Positions 17,938-36,725 of a stretch of DNA of 64,000 nucleotides are shown in pieces. This DNA is from Gordonibacter urolithinfaciens (GTDB lineage Bacteria > Actinomycetota > Coriobacteriia > Coriobacteriales > Eggerthellaceae): the NCBI RefSeq assembly GCF_900199375.1, contig NZ_LT900217.1, positions 992,001 to 1,056,000 of the forward strand. The letters are read 5' to 3'. The position numbers and the translations under genes were made by a program. A model generated the notes under the pieces. That model searched no databases. It had not been told where the DNA came from and worked only from the letters and a program-made list of their open reading frames with translations. Within the stretch, counting starts at the first letter, position 1, and the number at the start of each line of letters is the position of its first letter.

Positions 17938-18852
17938 ATGCAGCCCCAGCGCCTGTTCGAGATCGTCTACCTGCTGATGGACCGCGGCACCTCCACCACG
18001 GCGGAGCTGGCGGCCAAGCTGGAAGTGTCCGAACGCACGGTGCGTCGCGACGTGGACGCGCTGTCGGCGGCGGGCGTGCCCGTGTACATGACGCGCGGCA
18101 AGGGCGGCGGCGTGCACCTCATGGACGGCTACGTGCTGGACCGCTCGGTGCTGAGCGAGCGCGAGCAGAGCGACATCATGGCGGCGCTCTCGGCGCTCAA
18201 CCGCACCGGCGCGGCAGACGAGGCGAGCGACGAGACGGCTGCGCGCCTCGGACGGCTGTTCCAGCGCGAGAACGTCGACTGGCTCGACATGGACTTCTCG
18301 TTCTGGGGCGCGCCGCCGAACTACCGCGCCGCGTTCGATGCCATCCGCAGCGCCACCATCGGCCGGCACCCGCTGTCTTTTGCGTACTTCGACGCCGCCG
18401 GCAACCGCACCGAGCGCACGGTGGAGCCCGCGCAGCTCGTGTTCAAGGAATCGTCGTGGTACCTGCGCGCCTGGTGCCGCGAACGCGAGGCATGGCGCAC
18501 GTTCAAGCTGTTCCGCATCGATTGGGAGACGATCAGCGTCACGCCCGACACGTTCGAGGCGCGCCCGATGCCCGCGTTCGACGAGGGCGGCCACATGAGG
18601 GGAAGCGACCGGCTGGTCATGCGCTTCGCCCCCGAAGCGGAAGCACGGGTGCGCGAGGAGTTCGCTCCGGAGACGATCGAGCGCGAGGCAGACGGCAGCT
18701 GGCTGGTGACGCTCGTCTGCGACATCGGGGAGCGCACGCGCTACTACCTGCTGTCATTCGGCGAGCTGCTCGAAGTGCTCGAACCCGCTGATGTGCGCGC
18801 CTGGCTGCGCGAGCAGGGCGAAGCCGTCGCCCAGCGCTACGCAGAGGATTGA
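17938..18852 (+). CDS. WYL-domain transcriptional regulator
   Basis: The 304-residue protein has an N-terminal HTH_11/DeoR-like domain (residues 5-60, TTAELAAKLEVSERTVRRDVDALSAAGVPV) and a central WYL domain (about 140-230) with HPLSFAYFD, ESSWYLRAWCRER and TFKLFRID. The C-terminal WCX extension ends with ERTRYYLLSFGELLEVLEP. Proteins of this family sense ligands, often nucleotides, through the WYL domain. It is co-transcribed with the acetyltransferase gene and may regulate it. Confidence 0.92.
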   Translation: MQPQRLFEIVYLLMDRGTSTTAELAAKLEVSERTVRRDVDALSAAGVPVYMTRGKGGGVHLMDGYVLDRSVLSEREQSDIMAALSALNRTGAADEASDETAARLGRLFQRENVDWLDMDFSFWGAPPNYRAAFDAIRSATIGRHPLSFAYFDAAGNRTERTVEPAQLVFKESSWYLRAWCREREAWRTFKLFRIDWETISVTPDTFEARPMPAFDEGGHMRGSDRLVMRFAPEAEARVREEFAPETIEREADGSWLVTLVCDIGERTRYYLLSFGELLEVLEPADVRAWLREQGEAVAQRYAED

Positions 18853-18890: not shown

Positions 18891-18917
18891 AACTTTCCCG
18901 CATAACCGGACACGCCC
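18891..18917 (+). repeat. 27-bp direct repeat, left copy
   Basis: Identical to 19906-19932. It begins 38 bases after the stop of the WYL gene. Confidence 0.9.
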
Positions 18918-18935
18918 CAAGGCAGGACAAGGGAG

Positions 18936-18966
18936 GCAGGACAAGGGGACGGTTCTCTTGTCCTGC
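18936..18966 (+). repeat. REP palindrome, left of RAYT gene
   Basis: GCAGGACAAG and CTTGTCCTGC pair over 10 bp around an 11-base loop gggacggttct. A half copy (ggcaggacaaggg) is repeated just upstream at 18921. It ends 22 bases beyond the RAYT stop codon and could also act as its terminator. Confidence 0.85.
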
Positions 18967-18988
18967 TTATCCTTTTCGCCTGCTCCAG

Positions 18989-19771
18989 CTAGCCGCGAGG
19001 AAGTTGGCCTTTTCCCGCTTTCACTCGCTCGACGATCCCCTTGCTCAATCCCGTGAGTCGGGAAATCTGCCTGATGGAGAGACCGCGCGCCCGCAAAAGA
19101 AGCACCGCCTCCTCTCGCCTTGCCTTGTCGAGCGAACATACTTCGGCGCATTCCGAGACACCGGCAAGCTCCCGGATGAGCAACATCGCCTCCCGATCGC
19201 TCACCCACGCCGGTTTGTCGGTCCCGCAAGGCGGCAGGCCGCCATCCGATTCGCCTTCCACGAGAAGTTTGAAAGCCGACTTGGCCTTGCTCGGATCAGC
19301 GTCAAGCATATCGAGCACGCGCTCCGTGTCGGCAAGTCGGGGCGTCTTCATATATTCGTCGAAGCTCGTCCAGTACGCCGTCGTCTGCCCCACCTCGAGC
19401 GGATTCCTGTGTATGTAGCGGACAACGGACAAAAGATATTCGTCGCCCTCGATCGGCTTGCTTTTGTAACGATCTTGGAAAAGATAGCCCCTTCGATCAT
19501 ATTTCCTGTTGAAGTAGTGCGAATAGCTCAGAAGAATCTTCTTCATCATCGAGGACAGATCGATCCTCCCCTCCTCGACAAGAAGATGGACATGATTCCC
19601 CATCAGACACCATGCATGCAGCATAAAACCGCATTCGAGCTTATAGCGGCGGAGTCGCTCCATGAACGCCCGCCGGTCCTCATCGTCGTAGAAGAGCTGC
19701 GTCTGGTTTATCCCGCGCACCATCACGTGGTGCAGGCCCGACTCGCTTTTCCTACGTGCTTGTCTCGGCAT
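18989..19771 (-). CDS. REP-associated tyrosine transposase (RAYT, IS200-like Y1 family)
   Basis: The 260-residue protein has the Y1_Tnp core: SGLHHVMVRGINQTQLFYDDEDR, the metal-binding HUH variant H60-V-H62 in MGNHVHLL, FNRKYDRRGYLFQDRYKS, and a candidate catalytic Tyr in EYLLSVVRYIHRNPL (Y112/Y119). The C-terminal 45 residues form a helix-turn-helix (LRARGLSIRQISRLTGLSKG), common in RAYTs and probably used for palindrome recognition. The start at 19771 gives proper spacing to GGGAAGGGAG; two other ATGs lie just upstream. It is intact, with no frameshift, and lies inside its own REP pair. Confidence 0.93.
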   Translation of the reverse strand: MPRQARRKSESGLHHVMVRGINQTQLFYDDEDRRAFMERLRRYKLECGFMLHAWCLMGNHVHLLVEEGRIDLSSMMKKILLSYSHYFNRKYDRRGYLFQDRYKSKPIEGDEYLLSVVRYIHRNPLEVGQTTAYWTSFDEYMKTPRLADTERVLDMLDADPSKAKSAFKLLVEGESDGGLPPCGTDKPAWVSDREAMLLIRELAGVSECAEVCSLDKARREEAVLLLRARGLSIRQISRLTGLSKGIVERVKAGKGQLPRG

Positions 19772-19799
19772 GCGCATCTCCCTTCCCTGAATGAAGAAG

Positions 19800-19826
19800 A
19801 TGATGCTTTGCATCATTTTAATTATA
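19800..19826 (-). promoter_or_regulatory. RAYT promoter and palindrome
   Basis: A perfect TATAAT -10 lies at 19821-19826 (minus strand) without a clear -35. Just downstream ATGATGC-TTT-GCATCAT (19800-19816) forms a 7-bp palindrome that could be an operator or a leader hairpin. Confidence 0.5.
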
Positions 19827-19865
19827 GCGTCCTCGTATCCACGACGGAGCTGAAATCGCCGAGCA

Positions 19866-19890
19866 AGACAAGAGAACCGTCCCCTTGTCT
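19866..19890 (-). repeat. REP palindrome, right of RAYT gene
   Basis: Minus-strand AGACAAGGGGACGGTTCTCTTGTCT (arms 19866-19872 and 19884-19890) is the same unit as at 18936, in opposite orientation. A second ccccttgtct half copy follows at 19891. Confidence 0.85.
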
Positions 19891-19905
19891 CCCCTTGTCT
19901 TTTCT

Positions 19906-19932
19906 AACTTTCCCGCATAACCGGACACGCCC
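19906..19932 (+). repeat. 27-bp direct repeat, right copy
   Basis: Identical to 18891-18917; its second half is also the left arm of the palindrome 19916-19944. Confidence 0.9.
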
Positions 19933-19944
19933 TGTCCGGTTATG
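19916..19944. promoter_or_regulatory. 12-bp perfect palindrome upstream of the GyrI-like gene
   Basis: CATAACCGGACA-CGCCC-TGTCCGGTTATG lies 52 bases before the start of the GyrI-like gene. It may be an operator or the original boundary into which the RAYT cassette inserted, since only its left arm is repeated at 18900. Confidence 0.5.
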
Positions 19945-19995
19945 TTCGGTATCGTGCTCCTTGTCAACATTCACCGCTTCGAAAGGAAACGAACC

Positions 19996-20463
19996 ATGCA
20001 GTATGAGATAGTCGAGCTTCCCGAGCGCACCATCGTGGGCCCCACCATCCGCACGTCGAACAACTCCCCCGAGGAAGTGGCCGCGATCGGCCAGCTGTGG
20101 GGACGCTTCATGGGCGAGGGCATGGACCGCACCATCCCCGAGACGCGCGTCGAGCCGTATGGCTGCTTCGGGCTGTACTACGATTACGATATGAGCGACA
20201 TGGGCTACACGATGCTCGTGGGCTGCGAGACGCCCGCTGACGCGCCCGAGGGCATGGAAGCCCAGACCATCGCCGCAGGCCGCTACGCGAAGATCGCCAT
20301 CCGCGGCGGCGACTGCGTGGCGAGCGTGGCCAAGGCCTGGGAGGAGATCTGGGCCGACGAGGAGCTGACGGCGCAGCGCGCGTACACCGTGGACTTCGAG
20401 GCGTACCTTCCGGGCGAGGACATGTCCTGCGCCGACATCGACGTGTACGTGGCCCTGCGATAA
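19996..20463 (+). CDS. GyrI-like/effector-binding-domain protein
   Basis: The 155-residue protein looks like a stand-alone GyrI-like (AraC-type effector-binding) domain: YEIVELPERTIVGPTIRT at the start, IGQLWGRFMGEGMDRTIPETRV, CFGLYYDYD, and a C-terminal DFEAYLPGEDMSCADIDVYVAL. Such domains bind small hydrophobic molecules or peptides and either sequester or hydrolyse them. The start ATG 19996 has GAAAGGAAA upstream; earlier frame sequence is intergenic. It begins a run of four small ligand-handling genes on the plus strand. Confidence 0.85.
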   Translation: MQYEIVELPERTIVGPTIRTSNNSPEEVAAIGQLWGRFMGEGMDRTIPETRVEPYGCFGLYYDYDMSDMGYTMLVGCETPADAPEGMEAQTIAAGRYAKIAIRGGDCVASVAKAWEEIWADEELTAQRAYTVDFEAYLPGEDMSCADIDVYVALR

Positions 20464-22697: not shown

Positions 22698-23744
22698 TCA
22701 ACGCGGCAGCAGGAAGCCATGGCCGAGCGAGTCGTTCGGGTCGACGAGGCAGGTGCCGAAGCCGGTGAGGTAGGCGCTGCCCGTTATACGCGGGACGATT
22801 GCCGCACGGTCGCCAACCTGCGTCGTCCGGTCGATGGTGCCGGTGAAGCGGGTCCCGATCACGCTCTCGCAGACCACCGGCTCTCCCACGGCAACCTTGC
22901 CCGCGCGGTGGAGTGCGGCGAGCTTTGCGCTCAGGCCCGTGCCGCACGGCGAGCGGTCCACCTGCCCGGCACCGAACACCACCACATGGCGCAGCGCCGC
23001 CGGGGCATCGGGTGCCGCAGGCGCCCCCGATGCCGAGAACTCCACGAGGTCCACCGTGTCGATGTCGAGCGCCGGATGGCTCACGGCCACCGTGCGGTTC
23101 ACCTCGTCGCGCACGAGCATGCCGAGGCGCGCGTAGGCGGGAGCCGTCTCGGGGCCGATGTCGCCGAGACCCAGGCCGCCAGCGTCCGCAAGCGCGAAGA
23201 AGCTGCCGCCGAAGGCGATGGTCAGCGGCACGGTGCGCCCTTCCACCTGCACCGCGACATCGTCCCGGTAGACGAACGACGGCACGTTCTCGAACGACAC
23301 GAACTCCACCGCACCGCCGCGCACCAAGGCCGTGGCACGGATAAGCCCGGCGGGGGCCTCGAGCACGACCTCGTTCCCACCCTCGCGCGCCTCCACGATC
23401 CCGGCCTCCAGCACGGCTGTGACCACGGCGATGGCGCCGTGCCCGCACATGTTGAGGTAGCCGCCCGTGTCCATGAACAGCACGCCCACGTCGGCCCGGG
23501 GGTCGACCGGCCGGCACAGGAACGCGCCGAACATGTCGTGGTGGCCGCGCGGCTCCAGCATGAGAACCCGCCGCAAGTCATCGGCGTGCCGCTCCATCCA
23601 GCGGCGCTTCTCGATCATCGTGGCGCCCGCAGGCTCCGGAAAGCCTCCCACGGCCACCCGGCAGGGCTCCCCGGCCGCATGCACGTCCACCACTTTGACG
23701 GCCGCCTCGAACCGGCCCAGATCCACGTTCGCCTCCACGTCCAT
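22698..23744 (-). CDS. Proline racemase family enzyme (proline/hydroxyproline racemase or epimerase)
   Basis: The 348-residue protein has both catalytic cysteines of the two-base racemases: C100 in YLNMCGHGAI and C267 in DRSPCGTG, 167 residues apart as in proline racemase. Two Cys argue against the related dehydratase, which has Thr in one position. Substrate could be L-proline (feeding Stickland reduction) or 4-hydroxyproline. No prd reductase genes are nearby. The start at 23744 has GGGGAGGGCGC upstream. It is convergent with the SPL-like gene. Confidence 0.92.
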   Translation of the reverse strand: MDVEANVDLGRFEAAVKVVDVHAAGEPCRVAVGGFPEPAGATMIEKRRWMERHADDLRRVLMLEPRGHHDMFGAFLCRPVDPRADVGVLFMDTGGYLNMCGHGAIAVVTAVLEAGIVEAREGGNEVVLEAPAGLIRATALVRGGAVEFVSFENVPSFVYRDDVAVQVEGRTVPLTIAFGGSFFALADAGGLGLGDIGPETAPAYARLGMLVRDEVNRTVAVSHPALDIDTVDLVEFSASGAPAAPDAPAALRHVVVFGAGQVDRSPCGTGLSAKLAALHRAGKVAVGEPVVCESVIGTRFTGTIDRTTQVGDRAAIVPRITGSAYLTGFGTCLVDPNDSLGHGFLLPR

Positions 23745-23921
23745 GCGCCCTCCCCTTCGCCTGCCTCGCCTTGCTTCCCGAGCATACCACACGACGCGTC
23801 CGTGCAACTTGCGCGGCCCCGCATGCAACTGGGCCCCGACGGCCTTGCGCGGGCCCCGCGCGGTCGGGCATACTGGCGTCGTTGGCCAACCACCGCAACC
23901 TGACGACGGAAGGCGCGCACC

Positions 23922-24359
23922 ATGAACGTGACCATCACCGAGAACCCCGCGCTCGACGACGTCGAAGTCGCCATCGCATGCCCGCGCATCGACGAGCGCG
24001 TGCAGCGCATCGTGTCTGCGCTCGGCGCGTTCGACCGCGTGCTCGTCGGCGAGCGCGACGGGGCGACGTACCGGCTCGACGTCGACGACGTCTGCTACGC
24101 CGAGACCGTGGACGGCAAAACGTTCCTCTACACGGCCGATGCCGTGTACCAGGCGCCGTTCAAGCTCTACGAGCTGGAGGAGCGGCTGGCGAGCACCGAG
24201 TTCGTGCGCGCATCGAAGCAGATGCTCGTGAACTTCGACCACGTCGCGTCAATCCGGCCCGCCCTGAACGCGCGCCTGCAGCTCATGCTGGACAACGGCG
24301 AGGCCGTCATCGTGTCGCGCCAGTACGCGCCCGCCATCAAGCGGAAGCTCGGGCTGTAG
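23922..24359 (+). CDS. LytTR DNA-binding domain regulator
   Basis: The 145-residue protein consists of about 45 residues and a C-terminal LytTR domain (about 50-145: DVDDVCYAETVDGKTFLYT, ..LEERLASTEFVRASKQMLVNFDHVASIRP..LDNGEAVIVSRQYAPAIKRKLGL). It is the receiver-less type paired with DUF3021 membrane proteins, as here. The pair usually acts as a small self-contained regulatory unit in which the membrane protein restrains the DNA binder. The start ATG 23922 is preceded by GGAAGG. Confidence 0.93.
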   Translation: MNVTITENPALDDVEVAIACPRIDERVQRIVSALGAFDRVLVGERDGATYRLDVDDVCYAETVDGKTFLYTADAVYQAPFKLYELEERLASTEFVRASKQMLVNFDHVASIRPALNARLQLMLDNGEAVIVSRQYAPAIKRKLGL

Positions 24360-24366
24360 CCACCGC

Positions 24367-24397
24367 ATGAGACGTCAACCCCGTCCCCGTGTCTCAT
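24367..24397 (-). repeat. REP-like palindrome between LytTR and DUF3021 genes
   Basis: Arms atgagac (24367-24373) and gtctcat (24391-24397) enclose GTCAACCCCGTCCCCGT. On the minus strand this reads GAGACACGGGGACGGGG, a member of the GACAnGGGGACGG family. It lies inside what is otherwise a two-gene operon. Confidence 0.75.
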
Positions 24398-24413
24398 TTC
24401 GAAGGAGTTCGCC

Positions 24414-24845
24414 ATGAAGAAGATCATCGTCCAAGCCGCCTCCGCCGCGTGCATCATGTTCACCATCGTCATGCTGTGGTTCACGGGCATGGGCTACCTG
24501 TTCGCCGGGCCGAGCTATGGGCTCAACCTCACCATGAGCGTGTTCGGCGCCGCCTTCGGGATGGCGGCTCTCCAGGCGCTTTGGTTCACCGGCGCCGTGT
24601 TCAGGAAGCTCGCCTACCCGGCGCGCATAGCGGGCTTCGGCGCCTGCGGCCTGCCCGTGCTGGCACTCTGCGCCTGGGCGGGCCCGTGGTTCCCGCTCGA
24701 CGATCCCGGCGTCTGGGCGGCCTTCGCCATCGTGTACCTGTTCATCCTCGCGGGCGTCACGGCGGGCTACACCGTCTACTTCAAGAAGACTGCCGGCGGC
24801 TACGACCAGGCCCTCGCCCGCTACCGCGAGAAGAACCGCCGCTGA
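24414..24845 (+). CDS. DUF3021 family membrane protein
   Basis: The 143-residue protein has four predicted helices (about 5-32, 42-65, 72-95 and 102-127), the size and topology of DUF3021. Such proteins are encoded directly after LytTR regulators and are thought to control them by membrane sequestration. The start ATG 24414 follows GAAGGAG. The last 15 residues are charged and cytoplasmic. Confidence 0.88.
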   Translation: MKKIIVQAASAACIMFTIVMLWFTGMGYLFAGPSYGLNLTMSVFGAAFGMAALQALWFTGAVFRKLAYPARIAGFGACGLPVLALCAWAGPWFPLDDPGVWAAFAIVYLFILAGVTAGYTVYFKKTAGGYDQALARYREKNRR

Positions 24846-36698: not shown

Positions 36699-36725
36699 GG
36701 GACAAGAGAACCGCCCCCTTGTCCC
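36699..36725 (-). repeat. REP palindrome behind the ATPase gene
   Basis: Minus-strand GGGACAAGGGGGCGGTTCTCTTGTCCC: 8-bp arms (36699-36706, 36718-36725) around the same 11-base loop as the RAYT-flanking copies, one base different. Confidence 0.8.

Follow-up and report, generated by a model that had tools for sequence, protein, structure and literature searches.

A 27-bp direct repeat around a TIRYT-type transposase gene of Gordonibacter urolithinfaciens: most likely a duplicated host site, not a signature of the transposase

Do transposase genes of the RAYT and TIRYT kinds move as units? The question is open in the field. Members of the IS200/IS605 family do move in this way. A 2021 paper is in line with this and, in the part of it that is cited here, states that evidence is lacking that the related tnpAREP genes are mobile (PMC8266576). 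A locus of Gordonibacter urolithinfaciens poses the question concretely: a Y1 transposase gene lies between two inverted palindromes, and outside these stand two copies of a 27-bp sequence. At first sight the arrangement resembles a target-site duplication; comparison with a sister species favors a duplicated host site instead. Were it true that the transposase had moved the whole cassette, the locus would be direct evidence that such genes move as units. The cassette lies in a window of 64,000 nucleotides (contig NZ_LT900217.1, positions 992,001 to 1,056,000), which is the whole stretch of DNA that was analyzed; its features are collected in Table 1.

Table 1. Features of the cassette and its neighbors (window coordinates)
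Feature	Position	Strand	Remarks
WYL/WCX-domain transcriptional regulator, left neighbor	17938..18852	+	Pfam WYL 1.1e-21, HTH_11, WCX
Left 27-mer, probably duplicated in part from the palindromic GyrI site (only its left arm and loop)	18891..18917	+	G. pamelaeae gap without it
Two tandem 14-mers AGGCAGGACAAGGG, stutter of the palindrome edge	18920..18947	+	absent in G. pamelaeae
Left palindromic terminal inverted repeat (hairpin)	18936..18966	+	fold z -5.3
Y1/HUH transposase gene, TIRYT/RAYT type	18989..19816	-	275 aa; HVH at residue 75, YIHRNP at 134, C-terminal HTH
Right palindromic terminal inverted repeat	19862..19889	-	hairpin weaker than left: z -2.4 (minus strand), -2.9 (plus strand)
Tandem CCCCTTGTC stutter, right edge	19881..19899	+	read from sequence; absent in G. 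pamelaeae
Native operator-like site of the GyrI/Cass2 gene: right 27-mer and second palindrome arm	19906..19944	+	palindrome there in 7/7 genomes
GyrI-like/Cass2 effector-binding protein, right neighbor	19996..20463	+	start chosen by eye

The transposase frame is open throughout and its 275-residue product matches Pfam Y1_Tnp at 1.5e-14; the intact Y1 transposase recognized in the initial annotation is thus borne out. Both catalytic motifs, HUH and Y---NP, are present. The true start may lie further in, at MPRQARRK (~19771), since for most homologues the alignment does not begin before about residue 10-20. More specific assignments fall short of their thresholds: the NCBIfam model REP_Tyr_transpos (NF047646) scores 62.3 bits, below its equivalog cut-off of 80; HTH_23 gives E 0.00043 and 20.5 bits (Pfam cut-off 24.6) when the C-terminal 137 amino acids are scanned alone; and the two matches to solved structures, E. 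coli TnpArep (4er8; E 0.18) and a second one (E 0.85), are weak, neither being significant.

The palindromes are copies of one unit placed in opposite orientation on the two sides of the gene, as had been claimed: the 23-nt sequence GACAAGGGGACGGTTCTCTTGTC is exact at 18940-18962 (+) and 19867-19889 (-), and the inverted arms can be followed over 28 nt at 96% identity. The transposase would act on them as single-stranded DNA. The REP/RAYT label attached to the locus at the outset was imprecise: a Y1 gene with inverted palindromes it is, but with a C-terminal HTH, with GGGGAC-type repeats and without the GTAG tag; read by eye, positions 18910-18985 and 19850-19905 contain no GTAG or GTGG on the plus or the minus strand. 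The palindrome core is GGGGACGG, which agrees with GGGGWSAS at seven of eight positions; two homologous loci (L084 and L088) have GGGGACAG.

Gene and palindromes belong to an already known kind of HUH transposase gene. TIRYTs, as the cited portions of Di Nocera et al. 2013 describe them (PMC3733652), are RAYT-like genes with flanking terminal inverted repeats, some of which share GGGGWSAS, some of which are self-complementary, and some of which are dispersed as single, paired or grouped copies. The present locus resembles these TIRYT/TIRtron elements in its Y1 gene with catalytic motifs, in its inverted repeats on both sides with a GGGG-type motif, in the self-complementarity seen in some of theirs and in the dispersal of single and paired copies through the genome; it departs from them in the one base by which GGGGACGG misses GGGGWSAS and in its extra 27-bp direct repeat from a host site. 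Subclass 2.1 of TnpAY1, or RAYT group 1, holds 20 of the 26 described TIRYTs, and its members have C-terminal HTH-like domains of the HTH_23, HTH_28 or DnaA_C kind, Y---NP being the signature of the whole of class 2 (Quentin et al. 2018, PMC6006769, in the sections relied on). The window gene shares Y---NP, HUH and the C-terminal, HTH_23-like HTH with that subclass, in which it is placed by features only; as far as the same sections go, subclass 2.1 genes are without REP-like sequences beside them, whereas the inverted repeats here are hairpins. With the gammaproteobacterial RAYTs and their GT[AG]G REPs (Nunvar et al. 2010, PMC2817692, as excerpted) it has in common two inverted palindromes and paired copies elsewhere; unlike theirs, its palindromes show no GT[AG]G head to the eye, and its protein stays under the NF047646 cut-off. 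By features alone the gene therefore fits the TIRYT type better than the GTAG-REP RAYT. The TnpA proteins of IS200/IS605 have the Y1 HUH domain too, but in that family, according to the same portion of Nunvar et al. (PMC2817692), terminal inverted repeats are lacking and larger duplications of the target do not arise.

What, then, of the 27-mer? Its copies at 18891-18917 and 19906-19932 are identical, lie in the same orientation and stand outside the inverted palindromes, exactly as first described; that such a repeat is unusual for this class of enzyme is likewise borne out. No further copy with up to three mismatches occurs in the window (mean of 100 shuffles 0.00), and the longest direct repeat found across 300 mismatched flank pairs of related loci was 14. 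A literature search, as far as the texts it reached extend, found no account of such a direct repeat beside RAYT or TIRYT genes. The idea of a dispersed repeat was rejected: the 12-nt core CATAACCGGACA is exact only at the WYL-GyrI locus of the genome at hand (G000), of G002 and of G003, and has no exact occurrence in G001, G004, G007 or G011. The right copy is half of a 12-5-12 palindrome at 19916-19944 (DNA fold z -5.7), which the initial annotation had seen; the left copy is without the second arm and folds no better than shuffles (z +0.26). On its outer side the left copy adjoins CGATTTCCC; on its inner side it stops where loop meets arm in the palindrome, and there the cassette side starts. 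TTTTCT stands directly before the right copy.

The right copy is part of a conserved host operator-like palindrome of the GyrI/Cass2 gene (ORF 19942-20463; Pfam Cass2 8.7e-22, GyrI-like 7.4e-20), since the palindrome keeps the same place before that gene across genomes: it is found there in G000 itself and in G001, G002, G003, G004, G007 and G011. G004 and G011 are cassette-free; in both, the WYL gene adjoins GyrI, with one site between them that has both palindrome arms. In G001, G003 and G007 other DNA (~10, 9 and 4.5 kb) separates the two genes, and the palindrome still lies directly before GyrI. It is this shared place, not the number of matches, that is telling, because a pattern search allowing up to 2 mismatches gave 28 matches in total against 26 in the reversed-pattern control. 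The ungapped distance to the 27-mer is 0/27 in G002, 4 in G003 and in G004, 7 in G001 and more than 8 in G007 and G011. It had been proposed that an empty site with exactly one copy of the 27-mer in cassette-free relatives would support precise insertion or excision; in the event this is borne out in part: G004 offers one homologous site with 4/27 mismatches, and G011 one more diverged palindrome beyond 8. The site before GyrI may function as an operator, and the WYL protein may bind it; a promoter scan was uninformative, with no promoter-like site at the left copy or at the native one. The gap between WYL and GyrI may also be an insertion hotspot, because relatives hold other DNA there (L034, L035 and L036 in G001, G003 and G007); long ORFs were listed in the gap DNA of G001 and G007.

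The sister species is Gordonibacter pamelaeae 7-10-1-b (G002). There the cassette again lies between the WYL and GyrI genes, with order and orientation unchanged, and its transposase shares 94% protein identity with that of the window. The single 27-mer of G. pamelaeae lies in the native site, before which come TTCCGATTTCC and the right terminal inverted repeat, and the cassette sits upstream of the whole palindrome. A decayed left copy in that genome was rejected: local alignment finds no relic in the left gap above what shuffles give (p 0.87), and the N runs in this sequence lie nearby (the WYL start included), none being in the gap itself. The bases that precede the left copy here (CGATTTCCC) resemble the bases that G. 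pamelaeae has before the native site (CGATTTCC), so that the left copy looks like the native site contiguous with WYL, in place and cut after the loop; the right copy looks like the native site with its downstream part. Among 138 genomes of the family a homologue at E <=1e-20 was found in 56, and only that of G. pamelaeae exceeds 50% identity to the transposase of the window. The one scan of genome contigs gave two loci, in G. pamelaeae and in one distant MAG. Two genomes with this cassette were available, and the repeat may have been gained here or lost in G. pamelaeae. A home for the cassette on known phages or plasmids was considered and dropped: searches against these gave no match, and among viral contigs no relative was confirmed and no exact 27-mer occurred.

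Is a repeat of this sort a habit of the wider family? Flanks were examined for 72 of the 102 listed matches, the other 30 being mostly weaker; at three of the 72 loci a flank is shorter than 200 bp, at contig ends, and some of the loci (L100 and L112; L128 and L129) were judged to be near-duplicates. The homologous stretches retain H-hydrophobic-H in 62 cases and Y---NP in 69, and several homologues have in-frame stops. Inverted repeats of at least 14 nt join the two sides of the gene, within ~200 bp, at 51/72 loci against 2/400 mismatched pairs. Inverted palindromes are accordingly ordinary among the homologues, and the Eggerthellaceae are a good family in which to study TIRYT genes and their palindromes. 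Direct repeats of at least 20 nt within 500-bp flanks are found at 16/72 loci. At 15 of these the direct repeat has an inverted partner with no more than 8 mismatches (0-5 except in L103), the pattern to be expected where hairpin terminal repeats stand on both sides; the least clear are L090 (5/20) and L103 (8/28), and the 19-bp repeat of L096, under the threshold, has a partner at 3/19. The 27-mer of the window, whose best inverted partner has 11/27 mismatches, is the sole one of the 16 without a partner nearby. No duplication at independent insertions was found among the 71 other loci and one filled/empty pair, in a survey to which anything shorter than ~14 bp is invisible.

That filled/empty pair concerns a second transposase locus of G000, which is empty in G004 and replaced by ~4 kb in G001 and G003; comparison of G000 with G004 reveals no long direct repeat other than the terminal inverted repeats. 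The gene there (L002, G000:C1:2908348-2909097) is a second one of TIRYT type, with an in-frame TGA and flanked by TGAGAC-type palindromes, directly after a stop codon. For a third transposase locus of G000 (2961837) the matches in relatives are scattered.

The direct repeat is real and unusual, and it is most likely explained locally, by duplication of the host site. Specifically, the left 27-mer is probably a partial copy of the GyrI site that arose at this locus alone, through recombination or copying; most likely the repeat goes back to a single recombination or replication event and is not a signature of the transposase. The order of events and the mechanism might be pictured in more than one way. 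The likeliest route, though on its own less likely than not, is one-sided recombination: a stretch with the cassette and its adjoining site would have recombined into a cassette-free locus, with homology on one side only; the junction would link the recipient's site, up to where its loop meets the second arm, with the cassette's left edge, and the sites of recipient and donor would now bracket the gene. This gives the observed layout in one step. The passages cited from PMC3240628 describe integration that uses homology at one end while the other end is joined illegitimately, a route found to be rare in E. coli, and single crossovers after which part of the homologous segment is duplicated (109 to 950 bp in that work). 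The left joint has no clear microhomology; the identity of the two 27-mers fits a recent event and fits selection on the site as well. Divergence from G. pamelaeae at fourfold sites (transposase 13/119, GyrI 5/76, WYL 27/164, GNAT 9/105) is low in the transposase and GyrI, 18/195 together against 44/181 in the two genes to the right (Fisher p 9e-5, with a grouping chosen after the data were seen), and between the other pairs of species that were compared GyrI does not diverge slowly. This fits one-sided recombination as weak evidence: WYL and GNAT, to the left of the cassette, are intermediate to low, and because divergence drops again at ~23100-24750 the region is best regarded as a mosaic. 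A sub-path of the general copying claim that is nearly as good, if on its own unlikely, is local duplication: where the hairpins of cassette and operator are stacked, slippage or a switch of template would have copied ~27-36 bp of operator sequence to the cassette's left side. In its favor are the tandem stutters at the two edges of the cassette, which G. pamelaeae does not have, and similar stutters at several other palindrome copies in G000; the price is two switches, or a tandem duplication followed by a deletion, since the copied piece lies across the 1-kb cassette.

How does the transposase itself fare as the author of the repeat? The initial annotation had suggested that the repeat was the element's target or a recombination footprint, and a target-site duplication would have the cassette inserted into the operator hairpin with 27 bp duplicated, G. 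pamelaeae having acquired it by an independent insertion or having lost one copy. One site in cassette-free G004 against two here is the classical picture of such an event, and the left copy does end exactly at the loop/arm boundary of the hairpin. The suggestion nonetheless does not hold up well: the right copy is a conserved host site, and the cassette of G. pamelaeae lies between the same genes with a single copy, without the left repeat or any trace of it above shuffles. It is opposed as well by the inverted partners of all 15 other long direct repeats among the 72 loci, by the second transposase locus, where comparison with the empty site of G004 shows no such duplication, and by the lack of larger target duplications in IS200/IS605, noted above from the excerpted PMC2817692. 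Altogether, a target-site duplication is improbable, and the more specific proposal that a TIRYT moved its whole cassette, using the host operator hairpin as surrogate end or target and leaving a 27-bp duplication that ends at the loop, is more improbable still. Could selection instead have favored the left copy as an additional binding site, recognized by the WYL regulator or by the transposase? The 27/27 identity of the copies is what such selection would produce; the left copy, however, has no second arm, does not fold and is absent in G. pamelaeae, and the proposal strains belief.

Copies of the cassette palindrome elsewhere were sought with its 16-nt core, allowing one mismatch and taking the reversed pattern as control. 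G000 has 12 matches (two of them the cassette's own) and G002 and G007 have 7 each, against 1 control match in G000 and 0 elsewhere; G001, G003, G004 and G011 have none at this stringency. At least one of the 12 (at 152201) is without palindromic surroundings. Three pairs in G000 are in opposite orientation (273453/273488, 2078260/2078295 and 66247/66282). Compared with G. pamelaeae, the pair at 2078260 lies in a replaced and mosaic stretch, in which no clean duplication of a target can be seen; a search for empty sites found flanking matches for the pair at 273453 and for the cluster at 66190. Within the window an isolated single core copy (36701-36718, one mismatch) lies seemingly just past the end of a gene. 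Tandem partial copies occur on the outer edge of the terminal-repeat copies at L048, L050, L062 (for example GACAGGGGGAGACC) and L065, which suggests error-prone copying at these hairpins. L065 also contains a dispersed intergenic repeat, unrelated to the terminal inverted repeats, at 1422-1464 and 1590-1652 (G000:C1 ~2078180-2078410); four other genomes of the genus match this locus 34-44 times each, and most of the matches listed fall on these two stretches.
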